From positions 1-41,743 of the IMG/VR virus record IMGVR_UViG_3300048592_000871: DNA of 41,743 nt; one strand, 5' to 3'. A program made the position numbers and the translations under genes. The notes under the pieces were generated by a model, which was given only the letters and a program-made list of their open reading frames with translations, did not search any database and had not been told where the DNA came from. The DNA is from a virus. Within the stretch, counting starts at the first letter, position 1. Each line of letters opens with the position of its first letter. This document shows positions 23,672 through 40,568 of this stretch, piece after piece.

Positions 23672-24144
23672 TCGAGACGCTTCTTGGTGGTCTGCTCGGC
23701 GGCGCGTTTCGCCTGGCACCTGAGTTCCTCAAGTGGCTCGACCGCAAGGGCGAACGCGGCCACGAGCTGTCGATGCAGGACAAGGCGCTCGAATTCGAGA
23801 AGCTACGCGGTGCGCAGCGCATGCACGAAATCGGTGCCGGCGCCGATGCGGCATGGAACGTGGGCGCGATCGAGACGCTGCGCGAAGCGGTTCGCACCCA
23901 GGGCGAGAAGACCGGCGTGCGCTGGGCCGATGCCTTGTCGAGCAGCGTCCGCCCAGTCATCACATATTGGTTCATGGCGCTGTACTGCGCTGCCAAGACA
24001 GCGGCCTTCGTGGCTGCCATTGAAGGCGGTGCCGACTGGGGAGTCGCCATCGTCCACGCATGGACCGAAGCCGACCAAGCCCTGTGGGCCGGCGTGCTGA
24101 ACTTCTGGTTCATCGGGCGCGTGTTCGATCGGGTCCGGCAATGA
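23668..24144 (+). CDS. 3TM-type holin
   Basis: A 158-aa holin expected to open the inner membrane for the endolysin. Family pattern: N-terminal IETLLGGLLGGAFRLAPEFL, a charged stretch (LKWLDRKGERGHEL), then WADALSSSVRPVITYWFMAL and two further hydrophobic segments (AAKTAAFVAAIEGG; WAGVLNFWFIGRVF). GTG start at 23668, with GGAGG at 23657-23661 as a good ribosome site, overlapping the previous stop (GTGA). It is followed by the endolysin with an ATGA overlap. Confidence 0.85.
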   Translation: MIETLLGGLLGGAFRLAPEFLKWLDRKGERGHELSMQDKALEFEKLRGAQRMHEIGAGADAAWNVGAIETLREAVRTQGEKTGVRWADALSSSVRPVITYWFMALYCAAKTAAFVAAIEGGADWGVAIVHAWTEADQALWAGVLNFWFIGRVFDRVRQ

Positions 24145-24617
24145 TCCAGATTCCCCAGGCGGCCATCACCCTGGCGAAGCGGTTCGAAGGATTCCATCGA
24201 ATTCCGAGGTCAGAACCTCTGCGCCGGGCCCATCCCTATATCTGCCCAGCCGGCTACTGGACGATTGGCTACGGGCGTTTGTGCAAGCCAGACCATCCAC
24301 CGATCAACGAGGAAGAGGGCGAGACCTACTTGCGTCAGGATCTGCGCACAGCACTCACCGCCACGCTTCGCTACTGCCCGGTGCTGGCCGCCGAGCCAGA
24401 GGGGCGACTCGCGGCCATCGTCGACTTCACCTTCAACCTCGGTGCGGGGCGGCTTCAAACGTCGACACTGAGGCGACGCATCAACCAGCGAGACTGGGCC
24501 GCTGCCGCAAAGGAGCTTAGGCGCTGGGTCTATGGCGGTGGAAAAGTGCTGCCGGGACTGGTGGCGCGGCGCAGTGCCGAGGTGGCAATGATCCTGCGCG
24601 AATCGTCGGCAGACTGA
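24141..24617 (+). CDS. GH24 phage lysozyme (endolysin)
   Basis: A 158-aa muramidase that cleaves peptidoglycan. N-terminal catalytic segment: Glu16 in KRFEGF, Cys35 in YICPAG, Thr41 in WTIGYG. The spacing Cys-x5-Thr matches the E-(D/C)-T variant of this family, with Cys in the place of T4 Asp20. The distance from Glu16 to Cys35 is longer than usual because of an inserted basic segment (RIPRSEPLRRAH). VDFTFNLGAGRLQTSTLRRR and the C-terminal GLVARRSAEVAMI are also conserved. No signal peptide or SAR helix is visible, so export depends on the holin. It ends the phage late region. Confidence 0.9.
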   Translation: MIQIPQAAITLAKRFEGFHRIPRSEPLRRAHPYICPAGYWTIGYGRLCKPDHPPINEEEGETYLRQDLRTALTATLRYCPVLAAEPEGRLAAIVDFTFNLGAGRLQTSTLRRRINQRDWAAAAKELRRWVYGGGKVLPGLVARRSAEVAMILRESSAD

Positions 24618-24684: not shown

Positions 24685-24699
24685 CCAATGACTTATTGG
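24685..24699. promoter_or_regulatory. Inverted repeat, possible operator for the XRE gene
   Basis: CCAAT (24685-24689) and ATTGG (24695-24699) around GACTT, lying 8 bases before the ATG of the XRE regulator in an AT-rich patch (24660-24700) unlike the GC-rich flanks. TATGCT at 24678-24683 could serve as a -10, but no good -35 is visible. Autoregulation is a guess from position. Confidence 0.4.
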
Positions 24700-24707
24700 A
24701 TGATGTG

Positions 24708-25046
24708 ATGACAGCCTTCGAAAGCGTTGAAGAACTCATCCGGGCGGCACGCAACGGGCGCAGCCAGAAGGAATTCGCTGATCTCTTGAAGGTAGATCAG
24801 TCGATGGTGAGCAAGTACGAAAGGGGTAAGGCCAGCCCGCCCATCAGCGTCATCAACCACTGCATGCGTCTGGTGCATACGGCTGAGAGCGAAGCGACTC
24901 CGACGGCGGAACAACTCGCTGAACGGGTTCGCGTGACCTTGGCCGACCCCGATTTGGGGCAGGTACGCTCGGCGTTTTCCCGCTTGGTGGACGCCTTCGC
25001 GTCCGAACATGCGCAGCCCCGCACAGCGGGCACTGTGCTTCAATGA
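24708..25046 (+). CDS. XRE-family transcriptional regulator
   Basis: A 112-aa protein with a Cro/C1-type helix-turn-helix at about residues 8-50 (GRSQKEFADLLKVDQSMVSK then YERGKASPP). The C-terminal half is helical and variable. The ATG at 24708 is taken as start; TTG 24696 and GTG 24705 are possible. No clear Shine-Dalgarno is present. It follows the phage endolysin by 90 bases and precedes the DUF5131 gene by 14, so it may control that gene and itself. It is not a typical phage C1 repressor, since it lacks a LexA-like protease domain. Confidence 0.8.
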   Translation: MTAFESVEELIRAARNGRSQKEFADLLKVDQSMVSKYERGKASPPISVINHCMRLVHTAESEATPTAEQLAERVRVTLADPDLGQVRSAFSRLVDAFASEHAQPRTAGTVLQ

Positions 25047-25060
25047 CGTAGGAGGCCGAT

Positions 25061-25810
25061 ATGGCGACGCAATCGACCATCGAATGGACGGAGCAAACTT
25101 GGAATCCGACTACCGGATGCACCAAGGTCTCGCCCGGCTGCAAACACTGCTACGCCGAGGTGATGGCGCGGCGACTCCATGCGATGGGCGCTCCCGGCTA
25201 CGAGAACGAGTTCCAGCTCACTTTGCACGAGAACCGCCTTGAACAGCCTCTGACGCGCAAGAAGCCGACCGTGTACTTCGTCAACAGCATGAGCGATCTG
25301 TTTCACGAAGACGTGCCGGACAAGTTCCTCGACAGTGTGTTCTCGGTCATTGATGCAACGCCACATCACACGTATCAAATCCTAACCAAGCGTGCCGAGC
25401 GGTTGCCCGAGTATTTCGCACGCCGCGCTTGCCCGCAGAACGTGTGGCTGGGAGTGTCCGTGGAGGACAAAAAGTACGGCGTGCCGCGCATCGCTCACCT
25501 GCGCAAGGTGGATGCGCACATTCGCTTTCTGTCCGTCGAGCCGCTGCTTGAAGACCTAGGCCGCATCAACTTGCGCGATATCCACTGGGTGATCGTTGGC
25601 GGCGAATCCGGCCCGAAGGCACGTCCCATGCGCGAGGAATGGGTGGCAAACGTCCAGGCACGGGCTGAAGCCGCAGGCGCAGCGTTTTTCTTCAAACAGT
25701 GGGGCGGCTGGGGTGCCGACGGCGTCAAGCGCCACAAGAAGGCAAACGGGCGTATCTTCCGTGGTCGCACCTGGGATGACTATCCGCAGACGGCGGAGAC
25801 GCAGCTATAG
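25061..25810 (+). CDS. DUF5131 (Gp37/Gp68 family) three-Cys-motif protein
   Basis: A 249-aa protein of the phage Gp37/Gp68 family. The three-Cys motif is Cys20-x6-Cys27-x2-Cys30 followed by Tyr31 (GCTKVSPGCKHCYAE), resembling the radical-SAM cluster motif, though activity is unknown. Other family marks: IEWTEQTWNPTTGC at the N-terminus, VYFVNSMSDLFHEDVPD, YQILTKRAERLPE, NVWLGVSVED, RFLSVEPLLEDLG, VIVGGESGPKARPM and FFFKQWGGWGADG. AGGAGG about 7 bases before the ATG at 25061 is a strong ribosome site. Its stop codon overlaps that of the convergent TcmP gene within the palindrome CTATAG (25805-25810). DUF5131 and TcmP are known genomic partners. Confidence 0.88.
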   Translation: MATQSTIEWTEQTWNPTTGCTKVSPGCKHCYAEVMARRLHAMGAPGYENEFQLTLHENRLEQPLTRKKPTVYFVNSMSDLFHEDVPDKFLDSVFSVIDATPHHTYQILTKRAERLPEYFARRACPQNVWLGVSVEDKKYGVPRIAHLRKVDAHIRFLSVEPLLEDLGRINLRDIHWVIVGGESGPKARPMREEWVANVQARAEAAGAAFFFKQWGGWGADGVKRHKKANGRIFRGRTWDDYPQTAETQL

Positions 25811-26701
25811 CGTGTCCAGTATGTCTTTGGCGATCTTGGTCGCCAATCCGTATGCTGCTGGCTTTGGGTTCGACGCCGCGAAGTAGAGCGCGAATAGCGG
25901 CGCGCCGCTCGGATTTCTGGAATCGCCTCCCTGATACAGAACCTTGGGATCGGTCACGGCTGAAAACAGCCCCTTAAGGCGACTGGACACGAAGTTCAGC
26001 ATCTGACGGTGATCGGCGTTGCGTTCATCTCCATCATCCCCACCAAATAAGTCCGTTTGTCGTTTCTGCACATAAAACGCCTTACGCCATTCGTCGGTGC
26101 CCAGCACGCGGGTCAACGATGCCTCCTTGTCGGTATCCATTGCGTCGGCATTCTTCGCGGCCTGACGATACAACCCGGCGTAGGGGAACAAATACCAAAC
26201 ATCAATCGCGCCTGTCTTGGCTATCGCCTCCAGCGTTGACCACTCGACGTGCATCCCGAACGGATCAAGAAAAAGCACCGCGCGCTCACGTTGCCACTGG
26301 TATTGCCCGCACAAGGCTTTCAACGCAGCATTAGCATCGCTCTGGATCACTTCGATAGTCTTGCCCGGATACTCCGTACTCAGCGCGTTCAGGGCAGCCA
26401 ACTTCTTCGGTCGAAGCTCGATGAAGCAGAATTTGTGAAATGAGGGGTTGGTGGCCAAGGCTCTGCGCGCGGAGCCGTCGATGCTGGTTTTCTCACCATC
26501 CACTTTTATCTCGCAGCGGCCCGTACCAGCAAAAGCGTCGATATAAAGCCTGGTAAAGTTCTGCTTGCTGAGCGCGGTATTGAAAGCCACGAGGTACTTT
26601 TCCAGCGCCTCCAGCTTGATGCGAGTCCAGACACCACCGAACGCATGCCCATCATCCGGTCCCGTGTCGTCGCCAAATATGGATTCGTCCAGCACGCTCA
26701 T
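25805..26701 (-). CDS. tcmP: Three-Cys-motif partner protein TcmP
   Basis: A 298-aa TcmP-family protein, named for being encoded near three-Cys-motif (DUF5131) proteins. It looks like a Rossmann methyltransferase-type fold: YIDAFAGTGRC (residues 53-63, motif I-like), CFIELRPKKLAAL (acidic motif II-like), and VLFLDPFGMHVEW (142-154, motif IV-like). The partner function is not known. It is the last gene of the minus-strand defence operon, 12 bases after the helicase stop, with an AAGGATGA ribosome site that begins in that stop codon. It faces DUF5131 tail-to-tail. Its DNA looks less GC-rich than the helicase gene, suggesting separate acquisition. Confidence 0.85.
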   Translation of the reverse strand: MSVLDESIFGDDTGPDDGHAFGGVWTRIKLEALEKYLVAFNTALSKQNFTRLYIDAFAGTGRCEIKVDGEKTSIDGSARRALATNPSFHKFCFIELRPKKLAALNALSTEYPGKTIEVIQSDANAALKALCGQYQWQRERAVLFLDPFGMHVEWSTLEAIAKTGAIDVWYLFPYAGLYRQAAKNADAMDTDKEASLTRVLGTDEWRKAFYVQKRQTDLFGGDDGDERNADHRQMLNFVSSRLKGLFSAVTDPKVLYQGGDSRNPSGAPLFALYFAASNPKPAAYGLATKIAKDILDTL

Positions 26702-26713
26702 GTCGCGTCATCC

Positions 26714-29503
26714 TTAATGCATCAGTGGCGTGCTACCGCCAACAATTTCTACGTAACCGATCAGCTCCGCCGAGTAGCTACCATCGCCGTTCGCAGCCCC
26801 TTTGTGTTTCAGCTCCCGCTGCAGCGTTGGCTCTACCGCGCGGGTAAATAGCTCGATGCGCTGCTCCGGCAAGAATTGCGGTGTCGTGGCAGGCGCCTGG
26901 AGGTAGCGTTCGCACTGACGCTCCACCGCCGGAACACGTGTGCCATCCTGCTTGACGGCAATTGGTTGAACGACGACGCGACGCTCGCCGTTGCCTGCTG
27001 ATGCCTCAACCATCCACAGCGACAGCAATACCGGCGTATCCATGTCTCCGGTAACAGCAATACCAATATCCTCAGGCGGCACACTGCGCCAGCGACCAAG
27101 CTCCTCTTGCACTAAGGGATGATCCAAACCCATCAGCTCCAGATCGTCGTGGCTGGTGGCGGCATCCCGGCTAAGGGTAAATCGCGTACGGCGCACGCCA
27201 TCGACGGTCACCAGGTCATAGGTTTCGTTGTCGATCTTGATCAGCTTCTGCTGGCGGTCGGCCACCGCAGCGGCAAAGAAACGCACCAGTCGGTCCAGAC
27301 TCGACGACACGTCGGCGAAGGGTTTGTAGTCATCAAGACTGAAACCCTCCAAGTCCTGGAACAGATCGAACACCACCTGCCGAGCCTCGCGAGAATTCGA
27401 CAGAGCCGCCTCCAGCTCGACCTGTGTGCGTTTCAGCTCGGGATCGGACAACGCCTCCTGATAAAGGCGGTCGTAGTTGAGCCGCTCGGACAACTGGCCC
27501 AGAATCTGGGCACGCAGATCCTCGGCGACATTCCCTTGGTCGTCGACTTTCCCAACCGTCCTGGCGATCTCGGTGAGCTTCTCATCGAGCAGCAGGAAGA
27601 TGCGTCCCTCAATGGTGTCCGACAGCACCAGGTTGTAGACCTGTGCCGTATGGTTCTGCCCGTAACGGTGGATGCGGCCGATGCGCTGCTCCACATCCAT
27701 CGGGTTCCACGGCAAATCGAAGTTGAACAAGATGCGCGCGAACTGAAGGTTAATGCCTTCACGCCCGGCTGCGGTACAGACCAGCACACGTGGGCCGTCC
27801 TTCTGACGGAACCGGCGCTCTGCTGCCACCTTGGCACCGTGATCTCCACCGCGCAGCACCGCAACACCCTGACCGGGGAAGGTCTGGTCAATCTCACGGG
27901 CGATCAGGTCCACAGTACCGAGGTAGGTGGCGAACACCACAATCTTCTCGTTCGGGTTCTGCCGCCACAGGATGCCAAGGCCGTCCAGCAGCTTCTGCGC
28001 CTTGGTTTCACGCTGCTGCGGGAAGACCTTGAGCAGATCGCCGATACGCAGCCGTTCTTCAGGCAGGTGCAGCTCCACGACAGCCGATGCGGCTTCTTCA
28101 GCGTGGGCAGCCCCGTATTCGCTACCGTAGGGGTCAGAGGCCAGCTCCAGCGCTTCCTCATCCAGCTTTTTAACGAGCCGGTACTTGAGATCGGCGAGCA
28201 CACGATCCACTTCGCTGCGACCGATGCTGTCGCGCGCCACACCGAATTCCTCGTGTATCAGTTCGCGAGCCTCCTCCATAAGGCGTTCTCGGCCCTCGAT
28301 GTCGAGGTCTTTGTCCCGCAGAAATGCCTCGTGCAGCGTCAGCATCAGCAGACGGCGCTTGAGGGTACGCCGTACAGCGGCAAAGCTTGATGCCGCGATC
28401 TTCTGGAAGATCGCCATCAGGAAGCCAAGCGCCTGACCTTTGCCCCCCTGGCGGCGCGCCAGATTGAAGCCGTCTTCCAGGTACTCGCGCAGCTTCTCGT
28501 AAAATCGGCGCTCCTCCTCGTTCATGAGGAAGGACTCGGTATGCACCCAGCGCCGCGCAAACAGCGGCGACCCATCCGGCTGGCAAGCATCTGCCTTGGT
28601 GCGCCGGTACATCACCGTGTTGAGCCTGTGCCGGTGCTCCAGCATTTCTTCAGGGCTACCAAACAGCGTCGGATTCAGCAGCTGGGCCAGCATCCAGAAC
28701 TGGAAGTGATTGCCTTGGTGTGGCGTGGCCGACAAGAGCAGCAGGTCGCGTGAATGGTCTTTCAACGCCTCGGCCAGCTTGTAGTTCTCGGTCTTTCTGA
28801 CTTTTCCGCCGGTGCGGTAGGCGGTCAGGTGGTGGGCTTCGTCGAACACCACCAGATCCCAACGCGGCGCATCCAGCAAACGCTTGATACGCGCCGGTCG
28901 CTTCAGGGTGTCGATGCTGGCGATCAGGCGGTCGTGCTTGGCGAAGGCATTTGTCTTGCGGTCGGTGATGTCGCCCTCGGAGCCGAACACCTCGAAGTCG
29001 AGGTTGAAGACCTCGTTGAGCTCACGGTGCCAGTTGTTCACGAGCCCGGCAGGCACCACCATCAGCGCTCGCTTGAGTTCGCCACGACTGGCCAATTCCC
29101 GCAGGATGAGCGCAGTTTCGATGGTCTTGCCCAGCCCGACCTCGTCGGCGATCAGATAGCGTCGCGGCGACGCGGTGGCAATGCGGTGGGTCAGCACCAC
29201 CTGGTGCGGGAGCAAGTCGATCTTGGCGGAGGTCAGCGCCGACGCGCTTTCCATCACCGGCAGCGCATGGGCCTCATAGGACAGCCATGCCTTGCGCGCC
29301 CGATCCGCGCCACCGTCCACCGCGCGGAGGATGCGCTCCGTGCGCGATAGCTCTCGGCGGATCGAACCGACAGGGACACGGCGCTCGCCAACGCCGAAGA
29401 ATGCACGCAGATAACCGTCGCGCGCCGCGTCGAGAACAACTCCCTGGCCGTACTCGTGATGGGTGATCCGCTCGCCGGGGGAAAAGACTTCGTCAACCGC
29501 CAT
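26714..29503 (-). CDS. SNF2-type superfamily 2 helicase (BREX-like defence)
   Basis: A 929-aa DEAD/SNF2 ATPase. RecA1: motif I DEVGLGKT (residues 120-127), motif II DEAH (221-224), motif III SATPHQG (258-264). RecA2: TAAGREGINLQ, NFDLPWNP and QRIGRIHRYGQ (about residues 604-614). An N-terminal segment (SPGERITHHEYGQGVVLD) looks like a small SH3/CarD-like beta domain. The C-terminus (DLVTVDGVRRTRFTLSRDAA; MDTPVLLSLWMVEASAG) is typical of helicases in BREX-like and DISARM-like loci. The ATG at 29503 overlaps the upstream stop (TAATG); an open extension to 29566 overlaps the upstream gene and is rejected. Probably drives DNA translocation or remodelling in phage exclusion. Confidence 0.92.
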   Translation of the reverse strand: MAVDEVFSPGERITHHEYGQGVVLDAARDGYLRAFFGVGERRVPVGSIRRELSRTERILRAVDGGADRARKAWLSYEAHALPVMESASALTSAKIDLLPHQVVLTHRIATASPRRYLIADEVGLGKTIETALILRELASRGELKRALMVVPAGLVNNWHRELNEVFNLDFEVFGSEGDITDRKTNAFAKHDRLIASIDTLKRPARIKRLLDAPRWDLVVFDEAHHLTAYRTGGKVRKTENYKLAEALKDHSRDLLLLSATPHQGNHFQFWMLAQLLNPTLFGSPEEMLEHRHRLNTVMYRRTKADACQPDGSPLFARRWVHTESFLMNEEERRFYEKLREYLEDGFNLARRQGGKGQALGFLMAIFQKIAASSFAAVRRTLKRRLLMLTLHEAFLRDKDLDIEGRERLMEEARELIHEEFGVARDSIGRSEVDRVLADLKYRLVKKLDEEALELASDPYGSEYGAAHAEEAASAVVELHLPEERLRIGDLLKVFPQQRETKAQKLLDGLGILWRQNPNEKIVVFATYLGTVDLIAREIDQTFPGQGVAVLRGGDHGAKVAAERRFRQKDGPRVLVCTAAGREGINLQFARILFNFDLPWNPMDVEQRIGRIHRYGQNHTAQVYNLVLSDTIEGRIFLLLDEKLTEIARTVGKVDDQGNVAEDLRAQILGQLSERLNYDRLYQEALSDPELKRTQVELEAALSNSREARQVVFDLFQDLEGFSLDDYKPFADVSSSLDRLVRFFAAAVADRQQKLIKIDNETYDLVTVDGVRRTRFTLSRDAATSHDDLELMGLDHPLVQEELGRWRSVPPEDIGIAVTGDMDTPVLLSLWMVEASAGNGERRVVVQPIAVKQDGTRVPAVERQCERYLQAPATTPQFLPEQRIELFTRAVEPTLQRELKHKGAANGDGSYSAELIGYVEIVGGSTPLMH

Positions 29504-30024
29504 TAAGACAGCCTCGGGTGGTGCAGGCCGATCCACCCCGGGCCGTCCGGGTCGCTGTTGGTGCAATCGGGGTCGATGATGCGTCCGACGTCGGCCTCAG
29601 CGCCCGCCCACAGAATGCGCCCGAGGTCGAGGTGCTGATTGCTGTGCGGGGCCGAGCACACCCACGAATAGGCTTCGGTGGCGCGGTTCATCTTCACCCG
29701 GTTCTTGCCCGTTGGCAGCCAGAACACCAGGGCGGCCTCCAGGCTGTACTCGTCCTGGAAAGCGAGCACGGCCGGCAGCAAGTCGGACTTCATCCACGCC
29801 TCTCCCTCGGTCGGGTCCATCAGGTCAACGCAGCCTTCTAGGCCCGCCACCACCAGCGTATTGCCGTCGTTGCAGGGCAGATCGTCGGGCCATTGGCCGA
29901 CCATCGCGAAAAACTGGCGGATCGAGACCACCTGCTGGGGTTGTGCCAACACCGACAGGACCTCACCACCCCACAGCAGGCTCACCCCGCGACGCTTCCA
30001 TACATCTCCCTGCAGAATCTTCAT
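29503..30024 (-). CDS. Unknown 173-aa protein in the defence operon
   Basis: I do not recognise a family. ATG at 30024, two bases after the methylase stop; its TAA overlaps the helicase ATG (TAATG), so it is clearly inside the operon. The sequence begins MKILQGDVWKRRGVSLLWGG, is Trp-rich and mostly beta/alpha (VVSIRQFFAMVGQWPDDLPC; NTLVVAGLEGCVDLMDPTEG; ALVFWLPTGKNRVKM). It has no P-loop, membrane segment or metal motif that I can see. The size recalls the small accessory genes (BrxA/BrxB/BrxF) of BREX loci, but no motif supports equating them. A dedicated partner of the helicase or methylase is the natural guess. Confidence 0.8.
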   Translation of the reverse strand: MKILQGDVWKRRGVSLLWGGEVLSVLAQPQQVVSIRQFFAMVGQWPDDLPCNDGNTLVVAGLEGCVDLMDPTEGEAWMKSDLLPAVLAFQDEYSLEAALVFWLPTGKNRVKMNRATEAYSWVCSAPHSNQHLDLGRILWAGAEADVGRIIDPDCTNSDPDGPGWIGLHHPRLS

Positions 30025-30026
30025 GG

Positions 30027-33000
30027 CTATGCCTCGTCGAAGAACAGTGCCATCTGCTGCACCTGCTGCTGATGCGAGGCGGCCCAGTTGTTGTAGATGG
30101 ACAGCGCGCGGGATGCGGCGTTTCGGGTCTGCTGCGTCGCGCCGCGCCTGCCCAGCCATTCCAATAACGCCTTCAAGGCAGCGTGTGGTTTGAAGTTTTC
30201 GTTCTTCAATGTGTCCGCCGCATTGATGCCGCTGCCGTCGAAACAGGCGCCAATCAACACCAGTGCCTGGTCGAGGTCGGAGGTGAGCTTGCGCTTGTGC
30301 TTGCCCTGCCAGTCGCGCGCAAAGTCGAGCGGATCGACCAGCGTGAACACCTTGTTCTTTTCCGAGCACCAGCCACGTTGTACAAACTCATCCGGCGTGG
30401 TGATCGAGCCACGGAGAAACTTCTGCAGCTGGTCGCGGGCGATTTCGGTCTTGCTGTCGAAGGTGCGCAGGAACTGCCGCGACATCGGCTCGGCAGTGAC
30501 CGGCGGCACTTCCTTGCCCTTGTCGGCGTCTTCGTCGATCAGCTGGTTGATACCGACCAGCGCATCCTTGACGGAGATCGCACGTCCCTCGTCCACATAG
30601 ACCTTGCCGTAGTGGCGGGAGAAGTATTCCAGCGCCTTGCCGCGCCGGATCACCTGGATGTCTGCCGCCGGCAGACCTTCCTTGGCGTGGTTTTCCAACA
30701 TGGCCTGCAGTTGCCTCACATCGGCCATCACCTCGCGACGCATCCGACCCCAGCTCACCGGTTTGGGCTCTTCGGTGCGTTTCCGGCAAACGTGGATGAT
30801 GTCGTACTCGATCTTTTGAGATCCGAACGAAGCATTTTCGCCTTTTGTTTCGTCGGAACGTACAGGATAGGTTGCCTCGAGGTAATACCCGGCATCGAAC
30901 AACGACTCCAGAACAGCCACCCAGGCTTCGTCATCGTCATGATGGAAAGTGAACGCCAGAATGCCGCCTGGCTTAAGTATGCGGTGCGCTTCCCTCCAGC
31001 AATTGGTGAGTAAACGCTGATAGAAACCATTTGGATCATCTGGTTCGCGGAAAGGGTTCGCGACAGCCTCTAGCGACTTTGGCGTGTACTCGGCGCCGAA
31101 AATTTCAGAGTATTTTCCTTTAAGCACAAGACGTAGCCAGACATAGAAGAAGTCAGCCAGCTCTGCATATTGCAGAATGCCACCGAAGGGCGGGTCTGTG
31201 ATGACGAGATCAATGCTGCTATCAGATATCTGTGACAGACCTGTAGACGAGCCACAAAAGATTTCAGACTCACCAACGTAATCTTGAGGAAATACTTTCT
31301 CGCTTTTCCCGCTGACTCTAGCTGCAAGTGTCGCATCCTTACTTCTCAATCCTTCTGCGCTAACAAGCTCCCACGGGTTGGCTTTCCAAGTGAACGCATC
31401 GAATAATCCACCAATGGCCGATTTCCAACTGCCATCTCCAACTGGGTTGAATACACTTGGCTCTAAGTTGGTGCTTCTCGGATGAAAGTTGTTGTTACTT
31501 AACGCGGCCGAGATTTGATTGTTTTTTACATGCCAAATACTGAAAGTGTTATTGCACCGCAGGTACTGCTGGAACGCGCCCAGTACATATTCGCGTACCG
31601 TCCAGTCATAATTTCCAAGGGTTGCTATAGCCTTGAGCAGTTGAGCGTGCACTAGCAACTGGCGCGGGTTGAACATTGTCCAATAGTGGGTCAATCCGTG
31701 TTCGGGAATGGCCCAGCCGTGGGTTTTCCATCCAAGAGATAGCTCGGAGCGCGGCCAGTAGTCCTTCAGATCACCATCCTTGCGCGCTTCCCATTCCGCA
31801 AACGCAGTGCCTTGTTGCCTAGCATGCGTTGAACCGTAGGCTGCAAAGAAACGACCTCTGTTAGGCTTGCCCGCCGCATCGCGCTTTGGCGCGTAGCCTT
31901 GCACAGCATAGGCAGCCATTGGCCCGGTCTTGCCGGTGTTTTTTATAGTGGTAAGAACGTCCTGCACCGTGCCGCAGGCAGAGCAGGCGTAGTGCGATTT
32001 CTTAGGCACCGTGCCTTTCTCCGGCGCGAATGTGATGTTCGTTTCCGGGCAGGTCACTTGGTCCGGCAGCGATCCGCGCACCTCCAGCAAGCGAATTTTC
32101 GCAGCGCGCTCCTGATCCCAGCGTGTGGTCGCCGCCACATCGTCCTGCGCCGAGCCGCCGTAGGACTGTCCATTCGCATCCTGCCTTGGAGCGCCAGCTA
32201 GCCATTGCGGATGCACCAGCAGGCTGAGTTCCACCTTCTTGTTCTTGCCCTTGCCGAGATTGACCATCGCGGTGTGGCCGCAATGCGGGCAGACCACGCC
32301 TTTCTTGCGGTCGAGCACGGAGAACGGGTGTTCATCCGGCGCGACGTACAGCGGCGCCTCTGGGGCCAACCGCGCGGCGTCCTCCTCAACGTGGAACTCA
32401 CCGCCGCATTTGCTGCAGGTGTGCTCCCAGTGATTGACGCTGATGGTTTTCACCGCCATCACTGTGCTGGACATGATTGGCGTGCGATGACCGCAACCCG
32501 TCACCTGACAAGGACCGTGCTTGGCCCAGAAGGTGTAGATAATTTCCGGCCCTTCGTAGCGGTAGTCCTTGCGCTCGTCACGTGGAATCGTCAGCGGATC
32601 GAAATCGGCTGGCATCACCTTCTCGGTCGGGAGATGCGTCCATGTGCCTTTCTCGCCGTTCGGGCCGTCGCAGTAGTAGTACGGCATGATCTGCGACTTG
32701 ACCTCGTCCTCGATGTCGGCGAGGAGGCGCTTCACCTCCTCGAGATCGACATTGGCCAGTTCTTGCTTGACCACGAACCATGCGACTGGGTTCAGGTCGT
32801 TGCCGACCATCTGCATGCCGAGGCGCGAGCCTTCCACCAGTGTGGTGCCGCCGCCCATGAAGATATCGGCTACCTTCACGTGCTTGAACGCGCCTTTCTT
32901 CTGGTGGTTGGCGTAGTAGTTGTCCCACACCAGCTTTGCCGTATGCGACCTGTCTTCCGGTCCCTTGGTGGCCGCCGCAATTAACATCGAGCGGAAGACG

Positions 33001-33233
33001 CTTGATTGCCGCCGCGCCCAGTATTTTGACATCTGATATATAGGCTTTTTTGCAGCCCCCGATGCCGCTTCGATAGTGGCCACCTGATTGACGGATAGGA
33101 TCGGAAAATCGACCTCCAGGCAAGTCTTGGGGCGGTTCGGGTCGTTGAAATCGACGGTTTCCATCGCGACCGTCTTGCCAGCGCCTACGGCTTTAGCAAC
33201 TTCTTGTGCGAGCAGTTCTTTTTTTGTTGCCAT
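30027..33233 (-). CDS. DUF1156 zinc-ribbon DNA methyltransferase (PglX-like role)
   Basis: A 1068-aa adenine-type DNA methylase of the DUF1156 family. N-terminus with the family segment YWARRQSSVFRSMLIAA (about 71-87), motif I VADIFMGGGTT (121-131) with acidic NDLNP after it, and motif IV ITDPPFGG near residue 679. At least four zinc-binding knuckles lie between: CQVTGCG (about 243), CSKCGG (about 274), CPHCGH (about 316), CSACGT (about 417). The C-terminal 250 residues are helical and may form a specificity or contact domain. In BREX-like systems such methylases mark host DNA. A segment at about 30820-31700 is much poorer in GC than the rest of the gene. Starts 12 bases after the PglZ-gene stop. 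Confidence 0.93.
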   Translation of the reverse strand: MATKKELLAQEVAKAVGAGKTVAMETVDFNDPNRPKTCLEVDFPILSVNQVATIEAASGAAKKPIYQMSKYWARRQSSVFRSMLIAAATKGPEDRSHTAKLVWDNYYANHQKKGAFKHVKVADIFMGGGTTLVEGSRLGMQMVGNDLNPVAWFVVKQELANVDLEEVKRLLADIEDEVKSQIMPYYYCDGPNGEKGTWTHLPTEKVMPADFDPLTIPRDERKDYRYEGPEIIYTFWAKHGPCQVTGCGHRTPIMSSTVMAVKTISVNHWEHTCSKCGGEFHVEEDAARLAPEAPLYVAPDEHPFSVLDRKKGVVCPHCGHTAMVNLGKGKNKKVELSLLVHPQWLAGAPRQDANGQSYGGSAQDDVAATTRWDQERAAKIRLLEVRGSLPDQVTCPETNITFAPEKGTVPKKSHYACSACGTVQDVLTTIKNTGKTGPMAAYAVQGYAPKRDAAGKPNRGRFFAAYGSTHARQQGTAFAEWEARKDGDLKDYWPRSELSLGWKTHGWAIPEHGLTHYWTMFNPRQLLVHAQLLKAIATLGNYDWTVREYVLGAFQQYLRCNNTFSIWHVKNNQISAALSNNNFHPRSTNLEPSVFNPVGDGSWKSAIGGLFDAFTWKANPWELVSAEGLRSKDATLAARVSGKSEKVFPQDYVGESEIFCGSSTGLSQISDSSIDLVITDPPFGGILQYAELADFFYVWLRLVLKGKYSEIFGAEYTPKSLEAVANPFREPDDPNGFYQRLLTNCWREAHRILKPGGILAFTFHHDDDEAWVAVLESLFDAGYYLEATYPVRSDETKGENASFGSQKIEYDIIHVCRKRTEEPKPVSWGRMRREVMADVRQLQAMLENHAKEGLPAADIQVIRRGKALEYFSRHYGKVYVDEGRAISVKDALVGINQLIDEDADKGKEVPPVTAEPMSRQFLRTFDSKTEIARDQLQKFLRGSITTPDEFVQRGWCSEKNKVFTLVDPLDFARDWQGKHKRKLTSDLDQALVLIGACFDGSGINAADTLKNENFKPHAALKALLEWLGRRGATQQTRNAASRALSIYNNWAASHQQQVQQMALFFDEA

Positions 33234-33245
33234 ACCGGGCGTTCC

Positions 33246-34256
33246 TTATTTTGTGAGCTCGACGAAGGGCGACAACACTTCGAGTAGTGAGAGGCCGCCA
33301 TGCGTCAGCGTCGGATAGCCGCCCTGGCTCTTCCACTTCCAGCGGCCAAGGGCCAGGAGGTGAGCGCCGTGCGGGCTGTTGATTTGTAGTGCCACGGGCG
33401 GCACAAACGGGCCAGTCTCACCCGTGCCAGCCGTGCTGCGCCCGCTGGCGAAGGTTTTCTTGAGGAACTGGCCGACCTCGCCATCCGCATCCGGGAAATA
33501 GCCGGTAGCTGCGTAGCCGTGATCCGAGGTGATGACCAGCCGGCGCCCGGTGGCCAGCCGCTCGACGAAAGCCCAGAAGTCATCGCTGCCGAGTTGGTCG
33601 GCGGCATCGCGGGTCAGCATGTCGAGGCCTTGGCCCGCACCCGATCCGTCATGCACCTTGCTGTCGGGCCAGTGGTGCCAGAACACCCAGTTTTTTGCGC
33701 CCGGCGTGCCGTTGATCAGCCCTTCGCAGTCCTTCCAGGGCATGTCGACACACTCGGTTTGCGTCGGTTGCAAGCGATGGGCAAGGCCGCCGCCGTTGTT
33801 CTGCAACTGGCTGCGGCTACCAAAGCCCAGCGCCTGGGCGAATTCATTGGTCTCGCCGGGTAGTTCGGAGGCGTTGGCCGTGACCTCGTGCAGGGTGAAG
33901 CCGCGTTCCTTGGCGCCCTGTATCAGCCACGGCAATTCGCGCAGTGAAAGGCCATCGAGGATCAGCACTGCCTTGGCGCTGTAGGGCTCGCTCCACCAGC
34001 GCGCCAAGCGATCCGAGGTGCGTTCAACGCCGCTAATTTCTGGCTCGCCGAACGCTTGCCAGAGATCCCATCCGCTGGACGACAGAAAGTGGTCCAGTGC
34101 GCCGATCTCGCGATCGCGTTTGGTGACTTCGCTGGGTGCGTTACCTGCAGCCAGTGGCTTGGACGCAATCTCGACAGCTTTATCGATGATGACCCGCCAG
34201 GCATCGGCGGCCGACCCCTTGGTCAGGTTGTGCAGTACGCCGGCGTCCAGTGCCAT
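33246..34256 (-). CDS. pglZ: Compact PglZ-domain protein
   Basis: A 336-aa protein of the alkaline-phosphatase-superfamily PglZ domain. Metal-site motifs: VLILDGLSLRELPWL (Asp101), VITSDHGYAATG (Asp-His about 242-243), and LTHGGLSLLEVLSPFVEL at the C-terminus (His about 318), the latter being the typical HGG...E ending of PglZ. It is much shorter than the PglZ of BREX type 1 (about 800 aa), so it is essentially the bare domain with a short N-terminal helical part. The ATG at 34256 shares its A with the upstream TGA (TGATG), showing translational coupling with the ATPase. PglZ is a hallmark of BREX/Pgl phage exclusion. Confidence 0.88.
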   Translation of the reverse strand: MALDAGVLHNLTKGSAADAWRVIIDKAVEIASKPLAAGNAPSEVTKRDREIGALDHFLSSSGWDLWQAFGEPEISGVERTSDRLARWWSEPYSAKAVLILDGLSLRELPWLIQGAKERGFTLHEVTANASELPGETNEFAQALGFGSRSQLQNNGGGLAHRLQPTQTECVDMPWKDCEGLINGTPGAKNWVFWHHWPDSKVHDGSGAGQGLDMLTRDAADQLGSDDFWAFVERLATGRRLVITSDHGYAATGYFPDADGEVGQFLKKTFASGRSTAGTGETGPFVPPVALQINSPHGAHLLALGRWKWKSQGGYPTLTHGGLSLLEVLSPFVELTK

Positions 34257-36994
34257 CAGTCGTCCTCCTTCTCAAGGCTGAGCTCGAAGGTCATGCCGTC
34301 AGGCAGCTTCTTGAGCAGTTCCTTGAGTTGAGCTCCAGTGGCAGCGGACACCTTGATCGAAACTTCCGCGACCGGCGTTGCAGGGCCAATGCCCCAGCCT
34401 TCGAGCTTGCCGATGAGGTTCAATGGCGAGGTCGGCGGGTTATTGAGTGCGATCCGAGGCTTGCCACCACCGGACGCGCCACCGCCGAAGATCCCACCAC
34501 CGCCCGGAACGGGCGTGGGCTGACCGCCTGCTGGGGGCTCATTCACGCCCGGCGGCGTCGGCGTTGCTCCACCACCGAACAGACCACCAGTGCCACCAGG
34601 GGGCGGCGGTACGGGAGGCGTGCTGCCTCCCGTGGTCGGCACAGCGGAGGGTTCCATAAGGAACACTTCGTCGAGCTGCCGACCCGTGTAAGAGAGTTTG
34701 GGACGCAAGCGCTTCCACGCTGTGTCCTCGTCTTCACCCGGCTGAGCCTGCAGGTACTCAAGGCCACGCAGGTTGATGGCGATCCTGCCCCGCGCGCAGA
34801 GCCGCAGGATGCGCTCCTTCATCGAGGTTTCGCCAAGCCAGGGGATGCAGTCCTGGCCCGCCGGGCGCGGCTCCTGCAGCTCGCGGAGCAGCTTGCCCAC
34901 CGCCGAGTTGTCGGCCGCCGCTTCGAGTACGAGGTCCTCAAAGTCTTCGGGTACAAAGAGATCGTTGATCAGCGCTTCTTCGATACCCTCGGGGATCTGT
35001 GCGCCTTGCTTCTTCAAACTCTCGACGCTGAACTTGCACTGGGCCGGATCAGCGAAGTTCCAGCGATGCAGCACGGCGAAGCGGTCGAAGCGTTTCTTCA
35101 AGATGTCACGCAGTTCGCCCTGGTACTTGGTGTGGAGCTTTTTGTACTCGGGGCTCTGGCCGCTCCATTCCTGCGCCTTCATTTCGGCGCGGGCCAAGAC
35201 CAGCAGGTCGCGGTCCTGGAAGGCATTGGACGAGCCGGAGCGCGGCAGCAGGAAACGGATCGTGTTGCGGCGTTTCTGCAGGTGATCCTTAATCCAACGG
35301 CCGAGGCGTTGATCGAGGTTGTCCGGCTCTTCCGGCAACACCAGGATCGGCAGGCGATCGTCCCAGCGCTCGGGCTGCTCGGATTCATCGAGCGCCGTCC
35401 ACGGGTCCGTCAGCCAGGATTTCGGCAGCGCGATTACACGGAAGGTCTTCGCCACCTCTTCGGAACCACCGATGACGTAGCGGACCTCCTTAGCCAGTTG
35501 CGCCAGGTCGGAACCGTCGGAGAAGAGCTTGTCGTTGCGCGCACAGGCCATCAGCTTGGCCTGCGGGTTCTCTTCCTCGCGGAAGACCAGACGCGGGCCA
35601 TCCTGGTGGATGTTGAAGCTGTTCTCGACAATGGTCGCCAGCTCAACCTGGAAGGCGTTGTCATCGACGGGCTTGTCGCGCGTGATGTCGGCCTGCAGGG
35701 TGGCTGGCTCGGCGCCGGCAAGATTGCCGACCGCGATCGAGCGCAGCCACAACGCGCCTACAACCTCCTGCAGGTGCGGTGACAGGCTGGCGTGATTGGG
35801 TACGGCTTCGGTGACCGAGATGATGTTCTGCTGGGCCTTGGCTCGCAGGGAGCGGTGATGCTCGTTCGACACGGAGTCGAGTAGCGCACCGATGCCTGAG
35901 GTGTCATCGTCCAGGCGGAAGTCCGCTGCCGTGAGTACCGGGGCAGACTCGCCGCGACTCTTGTACAGATTGGCCAGGATGCGAATCATGTCGCGCGTTT
36001 CCTGCGCGTCGGTGGCGATCAGCACCTGCTCTTCGAGCAACCGCAGCAAGTGCGGTGCGTAGGGCCATGACTCGACGAACTCCTTGCGCTTGCGCTCCTG
36101 CTCGGACGATGGGACATCCAGCAGACGGAAATACTCGGAGACGTGTTTGGCGACCAGCGTCTCAATGCTGGACGGCGCGATCTGAAGGCGGTTGTCGAAC
36201 AAACGGTGCAACAGCATGCGTCGGCGATCCTGCTGTATGCGCTCGGCGTTGCCACCAGCCTTGAAGTCGATGGCGACCGGATTGACACGATGCACCTGCT
36301 GGTAGGCATCGCTGCCGCCGTTGCGTACCGAGATCACCAGCACCAGCAAATCCGGACGCTCCTTGGCGATCTCGGACAGGATCTGGATGAAGTTGAACGC
36401 CCAGTTCTTCCAGGGGTACTGCTTGGTGTTGGTCAGGCCGTCGTACCAGGTCTGGAATTCGTCAAGCAGCAGCATGGTCGGCGTGTGCTGCAACAGCTCG
36501 AGGATCAGCTTGTCGGACGGGATGTCGGTCTTGGCCGCCCCCATGCCTTCCCATTTGCCCTTGATGTAGTCGCCGTGCGGGTGCCGTTCGAACAGCAGGT
36601 CCCACAGGAACTTGTAGCGCTGGCGGTGCAGGCTTTCGCCGATCACCAGCATCCCGCTGCGCAGGGCAATCTTGCCGATCTGCGGATCACCGAGCGTCGT
36701 CGCCCAGGAGTTCAACCACGCACCTGTGGAGGTGGCGTCATTCACTGCGTGGTATAGCGCGGCCATCAAGTGGGATTTACCGAGGCCACGCTCACCGATT
36801 ACCACCACCGGACGTCCCTGGTTCGGGCCAACGGCCTCGATACCCTTCAGCAGGTCGTGGGTGGGGTACGTGATCTCCAAGAACTCCTTGGCGGCGATCT
36901 GGGTCGCGCCGGTGTTCGTGTCGTTGGAGAGCTCAATGGCTGTCCCTTTGAGGCGCTTGCCCCGAAATTCTTCTCGTAGAGTCAGTCCCAGCAT
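34256..36994 (-). CDS. DUF499-type AAA ATPase (BrxC/PglY-like role)
   Basis: A 912-aa P-loop ATPase. Walker A GERGLGKS (residues 67-74), Walker B MLLLDEFQTW (174-183), sensor-like LVISVRNGG (219-227). The middle region has the long helical DUF499 pattern (SGIGALLDSVSNEHHRSLRA; LPILVLPEEPDNLDQRLGRW). A Pro/Gly-rich linker at about residues 780-842 has two GLFGGG/GIFGGG units and precedes a small C-terminal alpha/beta domain (VSIKVSAATGAQLKELLKKL). Start ATG 36994 overlaps the upstream HTH stop (TAATG); a good-sized start region is confirmed by conserved N-terminal LREEFRGKRLKGTAIEL. Likely the motor or regulator of the defence complex. Confidence 0.9.
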   Translation of the reverse strand: MLGLTLREEFRGKRLKGTAIELSNDTNTGATQIAAKEFLEITYPTHDLLKGIEAVGPNQGRPVVVIGERGLGKSHLMAALYHAVNDATSTGAWLNSWATTLGDPQIGKIALRSGMLVIGESLHRQRYKFLWDLLFERHPHGDYIKGKWEGMGAAKTDIPSDKLILELLQHTPTMLLLDEFQTWYDGLTNTKQYPWKNWAFNFIQILSEIAKERPDLLVLVISVRNGGSDAYQQVHRVNPVAIDFKAGGNAERIQQDRRRMLLHRLFDNRLQIAPSSIETLVAKHVSEYFRLLDVPSSEQERKRKEFVESWPYAPHLLRLLEEQVLIATDAQETRDMIRILANLYKSRGESAPVLTAADFRLDDDTSGIGALLDSVSNEHHRSLRAKAQQNIISVTEAVPNHASLSPHLQEVVGALWLRSIAVGNLAGAEPATLQADITRDKPVDDNAFQVELATIVENSFNIHQDGPRLVFREEENPQAKLMACARNDKLFSDGSDLAQLAKEVRYVIGGSEEVAKTFRVIALPKSWLTDPWTALDESEQPERWDDRLPILVLPEEPDNLDQRLGRWIKDHLQKRRNTIRFLLPRSGSSNAFQDRDLLVLARAEMKAQEWSGQSPEYKKLHTKYQGELRDILKKRFDRFAVLHRWNFADPAQCKFSVESLKKQGAQIPEGIEEALINDLFVPEDFEDLVLEAAADNSAVGKLLRELQEPRPAGQDCIPWLGETSMKERILRLCARGRIAINLRGLEYLQAQPGEDEDTAWKRLRPKLSYTGRQLDEVFLMEPSAVPTTGGSTPPVPPPPGGTGGLFGGGATPTPPGVNEPPAGGQPTPVPGGGGIFGGGASGGGKPRIALNNPPTSPLNLIGKLEGWGIGPATPVAEVSIKVSAATGAQLKELLKKLPDGMTFELSLEKEDD

Positions 36995-37242
36995 TACTTT
37001 CGCCCCCCATCATTCGATTGGCCCTTGGCCACGCCATCATCTTCACGTCCGGTGTCGAGGCCTTCCATCGACTGCTGCTTGATCCACGCGTCGATGTCCG
37101 CCCGTGAGAACCGCCAAGTGCCGCCTACCTTGAACGCCGGGATCTTCTTGGCTGCGGCCAAGCGATAGACAGTTCGCTTGCCCACCTTGAGGTAGGCAGC
37201 CACGTCGTCGAGCGTGAATATTTCGCCAGTCTCGTCTTTCAT
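36994..37242 (-). CDS. Excisionase-family helix-turn-helix protein (operon leader)
   Basis: An 82-aa protein with a MerR/excisionase-type winged helix at residues 8-55: IFTLDDVAAYLKVGKRTVYR, then AAAKKIPAFKVGGTWRFSRA, then DIDAWIKQQ. The C-terminal tail is Gly/Asp-rich. It is the first gene of the defence operon and overlaps the ATPase start (TAATG). Small proteins of this type often head DUF499/DUF1156 defence operons; here it more likely regulates transcription or guides the complex to DNA than promotes phage excision. A 12-base inverted repeat lies 12 bases upstream of its start. Confidence 0.85.
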   Translation of the reverse strand: MKDETGEIFTLDDVAAYLKVGKRTVYRLAAAKKIPAFKVGGTWRFSRADIDAWIKQQSMEGLDTGREDDGVAKGQSNDGGRK

Positions 37243-37435: not shown

Positions 37436-37945
37436 ATGAGCGGCAACCGCTGGGACCAGCCGGGTGTGCCCCACAAAGGGTGGCATTGCGTGAATGTGGT
37501 CGACCTGCGGGCCGACGGCGAGCCGGCGGACGAAACCGATTACGCGACCTGCCAGATGTGCGGCAACGAGAAGATCCGCTACGTCCACATCATGGAGCAC
37601 CCGGATCTGGACGAGAGCCTTGAGGTCGGCTGCGTCTGTGCCGAGAAGATGAGCGACGACTATGAGGGGCCGCAGCGCCGCGAAGCCAAGCTGCGCAACC
37701 GGGCCGCTCGCCGCACCCGTTGGCTACAGCGCAAGTGGCGGATCTCCTCCAAGGGAAACAGCTTCCTCAACATCGAAGGCTACAACCTCGTCGTGTATCC
37801 GACGAAGACTGGCCGTTGGGGCTACAAGATCGGCGATCGATTTGGGCCGAAGACGTACCCGACTGCGAGCGAAGCCAAGTTGGCGCTGTTCGATGACTTC
37901 TGGGCGGCAACTCAGGATGACGAGCGGCTGTGGGCCAGCGACTGA
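37436..37945 (+). CDS. Unknown Cys-motif protein (169 aa), upstream partner of the nuclease
   Basis: No family recognised. ATG at 37436 with GGGAG at 37423-37427; an earlier in-frame ATG at 37415 lacks a ribosome site. Cys39-x2-Cys42 and Cys66-x-Cys68 (TCQMCGNEK; VGCVCAEKM) could form one zinc site. A strongly basic helix follows (residues 81-102, RREAKLRNRAARRTRWLQRK), then a beta-rich part with aromatic residues (NIEGYNLVVYPTKTGRWGYK). The basic helix suggests nucleic-acid contact. It precedes the AbiJ/DUF559-like gene by 17 bases in the same direction, so the two are probably one transcript. Confidence 0.75.
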   Translation: MSGNRWDQPGVPHKGWHCVNVVDLRADGEPADETDYATCQMCGNEKIRYVHIMEHPDLDESLEVGCVCAEKMSDDYEGPQRREAKLRNRAARRTRWLQRKWRISSKGNSFLNIEGYNLVVYPTKTGRWGYKIGDRFGPKTYPTASEAKLALFDDFWAATQDDERLWASD

Positions 37946-37962
37946 ACAGGGATATAGATTCG

Positions 37963-39366
37963 ATGCCGCATGACTCACCAAGCAACACACCGCGAGACAG
38001 CAGCCACCTGCTCAAGGGCAGGAGGCCGGATCTGATCGAACTGATCGCGGCTACGCTTCATTCGGTGAAAGCGTATGACTTGCCAGCTGAATGCGAGCGA
38101 CTCGGATTGGCTACCGGGACGGGCAGCGAAGCGCACTCTAGCAAGCGCGTGTACGTGCGAAGTCGCCTCCAAGGACTGAACAATGACCAGCTTCTCCAAC
38201 TCGCACGTCAGGTCGAGCAGGACCACGTCAGTTTTTCGCTGAGCGAATTCCTCCGACTACTGGAGGAGTCGAGCGACGCCCAGACAGTCACTGAACTCAC
38301 GCGGCGCACGATCCTCAAGGCGCTGAACGACGTTGATCTCTTCGGCGAACTCCCGCTGGTCGAGCAGCTGTCCAAGCTCTGGCCATTGTCTGAAATGCGT
38401 GGTGCAGGTTTCGAGGCAAATCTGGAGGATTCCGTCCTAAGGCACTGCGTGAGCAACGAGGACTGGACGAATGTTGAATTGCTCGAGTTGGTGGGCGCAC
38501 TGAGCTGCTCCCGACAACTGTTCTTCAAATTGCTTGAGGCGGTCGTCTCCCCGAATGCCCGCAGAGGGAAGGAGCAGACGCAACTCGTTGACACACTGAA
38601 TACTCTCCTCAAGGTGGACAGCTTCCAACTACGTCCATCTGGGAGCATCTCGGGACATTCGGTGTTTGCGGTGACTCGAATCAGTGGCGGCGTATCTGGC
38701 GCGCCCAAGAATCTGATCTTCGCCTCGACGGGCCCGAAGCCCGAGATCGTCATCCAGGATGCCATCAACAACGACATCCGAATCGTCCGCAATGAAGAGC
38801 ACTGCCTCGTGTACGACCGCCCGATTCACGCCAGCGGGCTTACCAAGGAGGAGATACTCTCATGGTGGCAGGAACGGCAAGGCATCCAGGACGAATCAGA
38901 AGCACGGCGATCGCTTTCTCAACGTCTGATGGCATCCCTTGCATCGGACGGCGAGCGAAACGTATTCAGCGTCTACTATCGGGCCTTCAAGGAACTCGGC
39001 GATAAGCTGCCAGCCCTCATTCCACAGGTCTATCTGCATTACGACCCATACACGCTGGCACAGCTCGGCGGGGTTGGACGCTTGTCTCGGCAACGTATGG
39101 ACTTCCTGCTCCTGTTTAGCGACGCAGGCCGTGTGGTTGTCGAGGTTGACGGATCTCAGCACTTCGCAGAGGACGGGAAGCCGTCCCTTGCCAGGTACGC
39201 GTACATGGTGGCGGCCGATCGTGACCTCCGGCTCGCCGGGTACGAGGTCTATCGTTTCGGGGCCAACGAGCTCACCGGCCACGGGTCGGCAGAACGGATC
39301 GAAGCATTCTTCCGGCGCTTGCTTCGGAAGCACGCGGTCCTTCCCGGGGTCGGTTCGGCTCAGTGA
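37963..39366 (+). CDS. AbiJ-like N-terminus / DUF559-Vsr-like nuclease protein
   Basis: A 467-aa protein. The N-terminal 90 residues (RRPDLIELIAATLHSVKAYD; PAECERLGLATGTG; KRVYVRSRLQGLNNDQLLQL) resemble AbiJ N-terminal domains of abortive-infection proteins. The C-terminal 110 residues look like a PD-(D/E)xK nuclease of the DUF559/Vsr type: RQRMDFLLLF (Asp380), VVVEVDGSQHF (Glu394, Asp396, His400), then a helix and LAGYEVYRFGANEL. ATG at 37963; an open extension to GTG 37930 overlaps the upstream gene. Likely a phage-triggered nuclease effector. It is the last gene before the ssrA-like attachment sequence. Confidence 0.75.
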   Translation: MPHDSPSNTPRDSSHLLKGRRPDLIELIAATLHSVKAYDLPAECERLGLATGTGSEAHSSKRVYVRSRLQGLNNDQLLQLARQVEQDHVSFSLSEFLRLLEESSDAQTVTELTRRTILKALNDVDLFGELPLVEQLSKLWPLSEMRGAGFEANLEDSVLRHCVSNEDWTNVELLELVGALSCSRQLFFKLLEAVVSPNARRGKEQTQLVDTLNTLLKVDSFQLRPSGSISGHSVFAVTRISGGVSGAPKNLIFASTGPKPEIVIQDAINNDIRIVRNEEHCLVYDRPIHASGLTKEEILSWWQERQGIQDESEARRSLSQRLMASLASDGERNVFSVYYRAFKELGDKLPALIPQVYLHYDPYTLAQLGGVGRLSRQRMDFLLLFSDAGRVVVEVDGSQHFAEDGKPSLARYAYMVAADRDLRLAGYEVYRFGANELTGHGSAERIEAFFRRLLRKHAVLPGVGSAQ

Positions 39367-39899: not shown

Positions 39900-40568
39900 A
39901 TGTTCCGATCCGTAGCCATCGCGACGCTTTGCTTATCGGCACTCACGGCGCAGGCGGCGTCAATCATTTTCCGCGACGGAACCGACTTCCGCTCAACGTT
40001 GATGCCGACAACGTTTGAGAGCTTTGAAGATGAAGCACTAAGCTCGGGCGCCACTCTTCTTCAGACCACATACTTTTCGGTTGCTACCACACCGCTCCGC
40101 GGTGTCGGTTCGCAAGTCGGTATCTTCAATGAAGTCGGATGGGCGCCCATCGGTGTGCAGTATCTCGGCGGAGGATCTGAAACCGGCGATCCTTGGCGCT
40201 TGGACTTTACCCTTGCCTTTCCAGTTACCGCAGTCGGCTTCTACGTCATCGACGCTTCCGAGCAAGAGGCGCTAATTGGTGGTCACCGTAGCCCTTCCGC
40301 GCTTTCGCTCCTTCTGCCAAGCGGGGAGACGTTCGAGATAAGCGCCTGTCCGCCTTGCCTCGGCAATCTGAGCACGCAATATTTCGGCGTGTACACGCCG
40401 GGCGAGGCGTTTTCGAGTTTTTCGATTCTGAATACTGCTAACGATGACGGCATCGCATTCGACGGAATGTCGCTTCTAGCTGCACCGGTTCCGATCCCTG
40501 CGGCCGTCTGGCTCTTCGGCTCGGCCTTTGGACTAATGGGCCTGCTTCGTCGGAGGGCAGCCGCTTAG
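39900..40568 (+). CDS. PEP-CTERM sorting-domain secreted protein
   Basis: A 222-aa exported protein. N-terminal signal peptide MFRSVAIATLCLSALTAQAA, then a beta-rich domain (FESFEDEALSSGATLLQTTY; LDFTLAFPVTAVGFYVIDA) as in many PEP-CTERM proteins. The C-terminal sorting signal reads VPIPAAVWLFGSAFGLMGLL followed by RRRAA: the VP.P motif, a membrane helix, and a basic tail. The exosortase system cuts such proteins and anchors or releases them with exopolysaccharide. GAGG about 8 bases before the ATG is the ribosome site. It is host chromosomal, just beyond the att-like site. Confidence 0.88.
   Translation: MFRSVAIATLCLSALTAQAASIIFRDGTDFRSTLMPTTFESFEDEALSSGATLLQTTYFSVATTPLRGVGSQVGIFNEVGWAPIGVQYLGGGSETGDPWRLDFTLAFPVTAVGFYVIDASEQEALIGGHRSPSALSLLLPSGETFEISACPPCLGNLSTQYFGVYTPGEAFSSFSILNTANDDGIAFDGMSLLAAPVPIPAAVWLFGSAFGLMGLLRRRAAA

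Follow-up and report, generated by a model that had tools for sequence, protein, structure and literature searches.

A convergent DUF5131-TcmP gene pair with overlapping stop codons at the border between phage genes and defence cargo

The window analysed here, IMG/VR virus record IMGVR_UViG_3300048592_000871 (41,743 nucleotides, without a host genome), contains two genes on opposite strands that end inside the same six bases. Phage structural genes occupy its plus strand, along with a lysozyme, an HTH gene and DUF5131. Read inward from 37242, the minus strand has genes for a small HTH protein, a DUF499 ATPase, possibly a PglZ, a DNA methyltransferase, an SNF2 helicase and TcmP. As the earlier note had read it, the two stop codons are the halves of the palindrome CTATAG (25805-25810), with TAG on each strand and an overlap of 6 bp. 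The locus raises the question of whether DUF5131 and TcmP are partners, and what their shared stop does. The features concerned are listed below.

24060-24617, plus strand: phage lysozyme, the final conserved late gene ahead of the cassette, kept in relatives (PF00959, 1e-31)
24696-25046, plus strand: XRE-type HTH protein, immediately 5' of DUF5131 (HTH_3, 2.4e-10)
25061-25810, plus strand: DUF5131 (Gp37/Gp68 family), with a predicted spore-photoproduct-lyase-like radical-SAM fold and the motif CX6CX2C (PF07505, 9.7e-109)
25786-25810, plus strand: final 7 or so codons of DUF5131 (its 3' end), varying with TcmP type (DNA homology, protein tails)
25805-25810, both strands: CTATAG, holding both stops in a 6-bp tail-to-tail overlap
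25805-26701, minus strand: TcmP (type A), probable RlmJ-like class I SAM methyltransferase (TIGR04474, 1e-56; profile and fold)
26714-29566, minus strand: SNF2/BrxH-like helicase, immediately upstream of TcmP on the TcmP strand
30027-33233, minus strand: DNA methyltransferase (HmaB/PglX-like)
33246-34256, minus strand: possible stand-alone PglZ (motifs ILDGLSLRELP and ITSDHG, by eye)
34256-36994, minus strand: DUF499 AAA+ ATPase (PF04465, 4.3e-8)
36994-37242, minus strand: small HTH protein, MAD1/excisionase-like (PF12728, 8.4e-20; NF047737 over cut-off)

A fusion of ParB-N and an N6/N4 DNA methylase (15-1232) adjoins the terminase genes at the left-hand end of the phage region. On the other side, the defence region reaches further than the listed genes, because a protein with AbiJ N-terminal domain 3 (37930-39366, 2.9e-48) adjoins the BR-like operon. 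A PEP-CTERM-like secreted protein, recognized by eye at 39900-40568 with no Pfam match, is probably a host gene outside the prophage.

Sequence and structure comparisons indicate that DUF5131 is probably an iron-sulfur enzyme. The cysteines of its Cys20-x6-Cys27-x2-Cys30 motif, singled out in the earlier note, are invariant in alignments of 65 and 58 rows, and CX6CX2C occurs in 143 of 144 DUF5131-homologous ORFs scanned (duplicates counted). The structure model (pLDDT 93.7) predicts a radical-SAM barrel fold, for which spore photoproduct lyase (SPL) provides the only PDB folds with E < 0.001 (TM-score 0.56). DUF5131 matches PADLOC PDC-M41B over nearly its full length (5.7e-113) and matches TIGR04471 along most of its length, but at 91 bits against a cut-off of 355 bits. 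The canonical CX3CX2C motif is absent from the protein, PF04055 is not among its profile matches, and searching the PDB sequences with its own family profile gave no match.

TcmP is probably an RlmJ-like SAM methyltransferase acting on RNA or DNA. It scores 192.8 bits against TIGR04474 (curated cut-off 53 bits, E 1e-56) and matches PADLOC PDC-M41A over nearly its full length (2.5e-85). Its methyltransferase-like motifs, also remarked on earlier, are borne out by a SAM-binding motif I, D55-x-F57-x-G59-x-G61, and by an invariant D146 in DPFG. The top fold matches of its model (pLDDT 92.3) are DUF519/RlmJ, and RlmJ is its best PDB profile match (E 0.005); the DPPY catalytic motif of RlmJ is not found in TcmP, which has DPFG in the window and DPYG in the consensus. 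Weak TIGR04474 matches of about 285 aa, confined to positions 20-136, are probably RlmJ and were left out of the TcmP counts. Both DUF5131 and TcmP are under strong purifying selection, with dN/dS of about 0.04-0.07 where dS was computable. One related TcmP (L005:6001-6837), 88% identical to that of the window, matches up to residue 219 and is apparently cut by a transposase-like ORF.

Two predicted enzymes of this kind invite the question of partnership. Relatives were drawn from viral contigs via both DUF5131 and TcmP, and about 870 genomes (some drawn twice) were sampled via the TcmP profile, together with phage and plasmid records. In three genome samples collected through TcmP only, every fetched match over the cut-off adjoins DUF5131, the two exceptions being L162 and L163, the latter a fragment at the edge of a contig. 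The claim that the two families form a real unit holds in this sense: they are neighbours in nearly every genome with TcmP. Single-sequence scans of viral contigs with other TcmPs returned contigs already in the DUF5131 scan, and no DUF5131-TcmP fusion was seen among the long DUF5131 ORFs checked.

The association is looser from the side of DUF5131. A tblastn search of phage records finds DUF5131 in 161 and TcmP in 5, the TcmP search being insensitive, and DUF5131 is common in phages without a detected TcmP, so it works there without TcmP or with another partner. The earlier note held that random orientation and distance, or loss of one partner without consequence in close relatives, would refute its reading. 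The orientation is not random, but the close relative L022, whose DUF5131 is 89% identical, has no TcmP behind it, which goes part of the way towards such a refutation. In a Nostoc and a haloarchaeal plasmid (L121:2835-4897 and L126:2858-4849), TcmP adjoins a CX3CX2C radical SAM protein rather than DUF5131. These neighbours are PA0069/Rv2578c-like and match TIGR04470, and the pair is divergent in Nostoc; their identity hints at the nature of DUF5131.

Removal of near-copies left 92 non-redundant adjacent DUF5131-TcmP pairs, whose orientation is non-random: 51 are convergent, 26 run DUF5131 then TcmP, 15 run TcmP then DUF5131, and none is divergent. Overlaps of 4-46 bp occur in 45 of the 51 convergent pairs, the other six having none. 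Other convergent neighbours in these annotated regions, counted by hand as a small baseline, overlap in 4 of 16 cases (Fisher p 3.6e-6). Orientation also follows TcmP length. Short TcmPs are convergent in 43 of 53 pairs, and in 10 of 15 after removal of everything more than 40% identical (p 0.0008 vs 25%); long TcmPs usually point the same way as DUF5131. All 26 phage-borne short-TcmP pairs are convergent and overlapping, although the viral sample overstates the generality of convergence because it was gathered mainly via the window's type of DUF5131. Genomes sampled by TcmP alone show convergence for 10 of 17 short TcmPs and for 2 of 26 long ones. Convergent pairs range from proteobacterial prophages to a Synechococcus phage, five Gordonia phages, and Nocardioides and Deinococcus plasmids, and their orientation requires nine changes on the TcmP tree. 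The tail-to-tail arrangement is real and old. On pSymA and pAt (L124 and L131) the arrangement has three genes: DUF5131 and then a long TcmP share a strand, and the end of a short TcmP meets that of the long one tail-to-tail. The S. meliloti symbiotic plasmid is reported to carry TcmP beside hna (PMC12445080).

The exact form of the joint is less constant than the arrangement. The 6-bp palindrome is not general: close relatives of the window have YTATAR, and elsewhere the overlap is YTAR (4 bp) or spans 8-46 bp. Predicted promoters and intrinsic terminators were no more frequent than in shuffled sequence, and the junction has none. The end of TcmP contains a 7-bp near-palindrome (25829-25850), which was rejected as a terminator because it has no T-run and is not conserved in L004. 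In L026 (6744-7034), sequence resembling an IS5-family transposase starts directly after the TTAG stop of DUF5131.

Comparison of the closest relatives shows what changes at this joint. The window's phage lineage is defined by the conserved HTH gene and DUF5131, with the lysozyme in most members, and the HTH protein is 46-91% identical across 24 related loci. Among the closest relatives, DUF5131 is 87-93% identical, whereas TcmP falls into types A and B that are just 20-24% identical to each other. Type A is found in the window, L002, L003, L013 and L016, and also in L004 at 80%; type B is found in L012, L014, L017, L019 and L023-L025. DNA homology between type-A and type-B loci ends at 25785-25789, 21-25 nt ahead of the DUF5131 stop, and the protein tail past RTWDDYP varies by TcmP type. 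On a DUF5131 DNA tree built without this tail, the types are scattered, with 5 changes (4-5 in bootstrap; shuffled mean 5.2), at least 3 of them forced by well-supported branches. The nearest DUF5131 to that of the window, in L011, is followed by type-B sequence, as judged from 40 bases past the stop, the contig ending before a full TcmP. Both types keep DUF5131 as neighbour.

The genes beyond TcmP change as well. On its strand, relatives carry DUF499/HmaC (L003), TIR (L002), PLD-like (L025) or HNH (L014) genes in place of the window's Type-3-BR-like operon. Other phages have an integrase or S24 repressor gene in that place, and in Gordonia phages TcmP directly follows the immunity repressor, a position that suggests lysogenic expression. 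The earlier note had assigned DUF5131 to an XRE regulator and the lysis genes, which stands, and TcmP to a BREX-like operon, which describes the window alone, since relatives carry other defence genes. The window's operon resembles Type-3 BR (PMC12839542) in its DUF499 ATPase, N6-methyltransferase and BrxH-type helicase, and it ends in TcmP. For the stand-alone PglZ of that system, 33246-34256 has motifs by eye and no profile match. An iSTAND component is present in 82% of Type-3 BR systems (PMC12839542), and no further ORF of obvious fit was found in the window's operon; the Type-3 BR paper does not mention TcmP (PMC12839542).

Since TcmP type and cargo vary beside a constant DUF5131, the shared stop separates a phage part that stays fixed from cargo that can be exchanged. 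Close phage relatives swap TcmP and the defence genes behind it at this joint, an exchange of gene content for which we infer recombination as the route. The earlier idea of a bridge between phage and defence operon is thus true in a structural sense, the junction lying between phage genes and defence genes. It could go back to one old joining event, with later recombination further upstream. IS5-type elements have the target motif YTAR, the same as the 4-bp shared stop, and stop overlaps may be insertion targets for such elements.

The best explanation, which we hold with moderate confidence, is a two-enzyme PDC-M41 cassette of a temperate phage in which DUF5131 is the fixed anchor and TcmP and its cargo are exchangeable. 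From the known biochemistry of the two families, the simplest reading is that a radical-SAM-like enzyme shares its RNA or DNA substrate with a base methyltransferase. The SPL-like DUF5131 and the RlmJ-like TcmP would probably perform successive or joint chemistry on one nucleic-acid substrate; a joint modification reaction had been proposed before, and the predicted SPL and RlmJ folds fit it, which makes it plausible. This chemistry may serve defence or self-marking in the lysogen, and the PADLOC listing and neighbouring genes suggest a defence role for the candidate pair. HTH-DUF5131 would form the fixed part that closes the late/lysis region in the window's phage lineage. TcmP, on the opposite strand and last of the defence genes beyond, would be swapped together with that cargo, presumably by recombination using the conserved DUF5131 gene as homology. 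The overlapping stops would then be the exchange joint, inherited, compact and tolerated, rather than a general antisense switch.

A more specific version, to which we give a fairly low probability, treats the pair as a split modification enzyme, with a fixed radical-SAM-like half in the phage and a swappable methyltransferase half. The last codons of DUF5131 would be carried along with TcmP, matching tails to partners, and the joint would serve as a docking point for defence cargo. If this version is true, temperate phages exchange defence cargo at the joint.

Other readings give the contact between the genes a different weight. Expression of DUF5131 (lytic/late) and TcmP (lysogenic/defence) could be exclusive or mutually limiting through antisense or collision control, making the pair a switch. 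The convergence and overlap of 26/26 viral short-TcmP pairs agree with this idea, as do the frequent company of TcmP with repressor or integrase genes, including its place directly past the immunity repressor in Gordonia phages, and the lack of a terminator between DUF5131 and TcmP. However, 41 of the 92 pairs are co-directional, many of them in contact or overlapping, which implies co-expression, so that mutually exclusive expression, as the earlier note had suggested, is not supported as a general rule. The overlap itself varies from 4 to 46 bp, is missing from six convergent pairs, and is not needed for function because long TcmPs are mostly co-directional with DUF5131. We regard such a switch as quite improbable.

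It is also unlikely, if slightly less so, that an accessory phage gene, DUF5131, and unrelated defence cargo, TcmP, were compacted together and are passively inherited as neighbours in a gene-exchange site. Many phages and the close relative L022 do carry DUF5131 without TcmP, and short convergent overlaps occur between other phage genes too (4/16). Such passive inheritance is hard to reconcile with the adjacency of TcmP and DUF5131 in nearly all TcmP-sampled genomes, in three orientations and several phyla, and with the retention of DUF5131 as neighbour by type-A and type-B TcmPs alike. The pair might instead act in counter-defence or prophage self-protection, an SPL-like repair enzyme and a methyltransferase restoring or marking RNA or DNA that host or rival defences have damaged or targeted. 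The closest folds belong to SPL, a radical SAM enzyme that repairs DNA, and to RlmJ, which modifies rRNA, and TcmP is the last gene beside differing restriction-like operons. The pair also lies far from restriction systems, for example beside integrase or repressor genes, and we give this role a low probability.

Set against known systems, the window's pair corresponds to the PADLOC candidates PDC-M41/PDC-M30 (A, TcmP; B, DUF5131), matching both M41 models with the two genes adjacent and in 6-bp contact, while the long TcmP of another locus matches M30A best. Both are defence candidates by name only, and a literature search on DUF5131, Gp37/Gp68 and PDC-M41 found nothing on function or mechanism, with TcmP mentioned just in passing, in two papers. 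Among the NCBIfam models TIGR04474 (TcmP) and TIGR04471/TIGR04470 (radical SAM mobile pair A/B), TcmP passes its cut-off and DUF5131 fails that of TIGR04471. Because the pair is already a PADLOC-DB candidate and NCBI named TcmP for its partner, it is a member of a recognised but still uncharacterised class. The literature searched contains no survey of the pair's orientation, no assignment of these folds and no account of partner and cargo being exchanged at the joint, all of which are described here. DUF5131 differs from spore photoproduct lyase in having CX6CX2C where the lyase has CX3CX2C, at 14% identity. TcmP keeps motif I and the motif-IV Asp of RlmJ (23S rRNA A2030 N6-methyltransferase, DUF519), but has DP[FY]G for DPPY, at 10-12% identity. 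Both families are widespread and named by motif or number only; their predicted folds and near-obligate pairing offer a testable function, in which a radical SAM enzyme and a methyltransferase would act on RNA or DNA. The swapping seen at the joint suggests that phages carry a site at which defence genes change hands.
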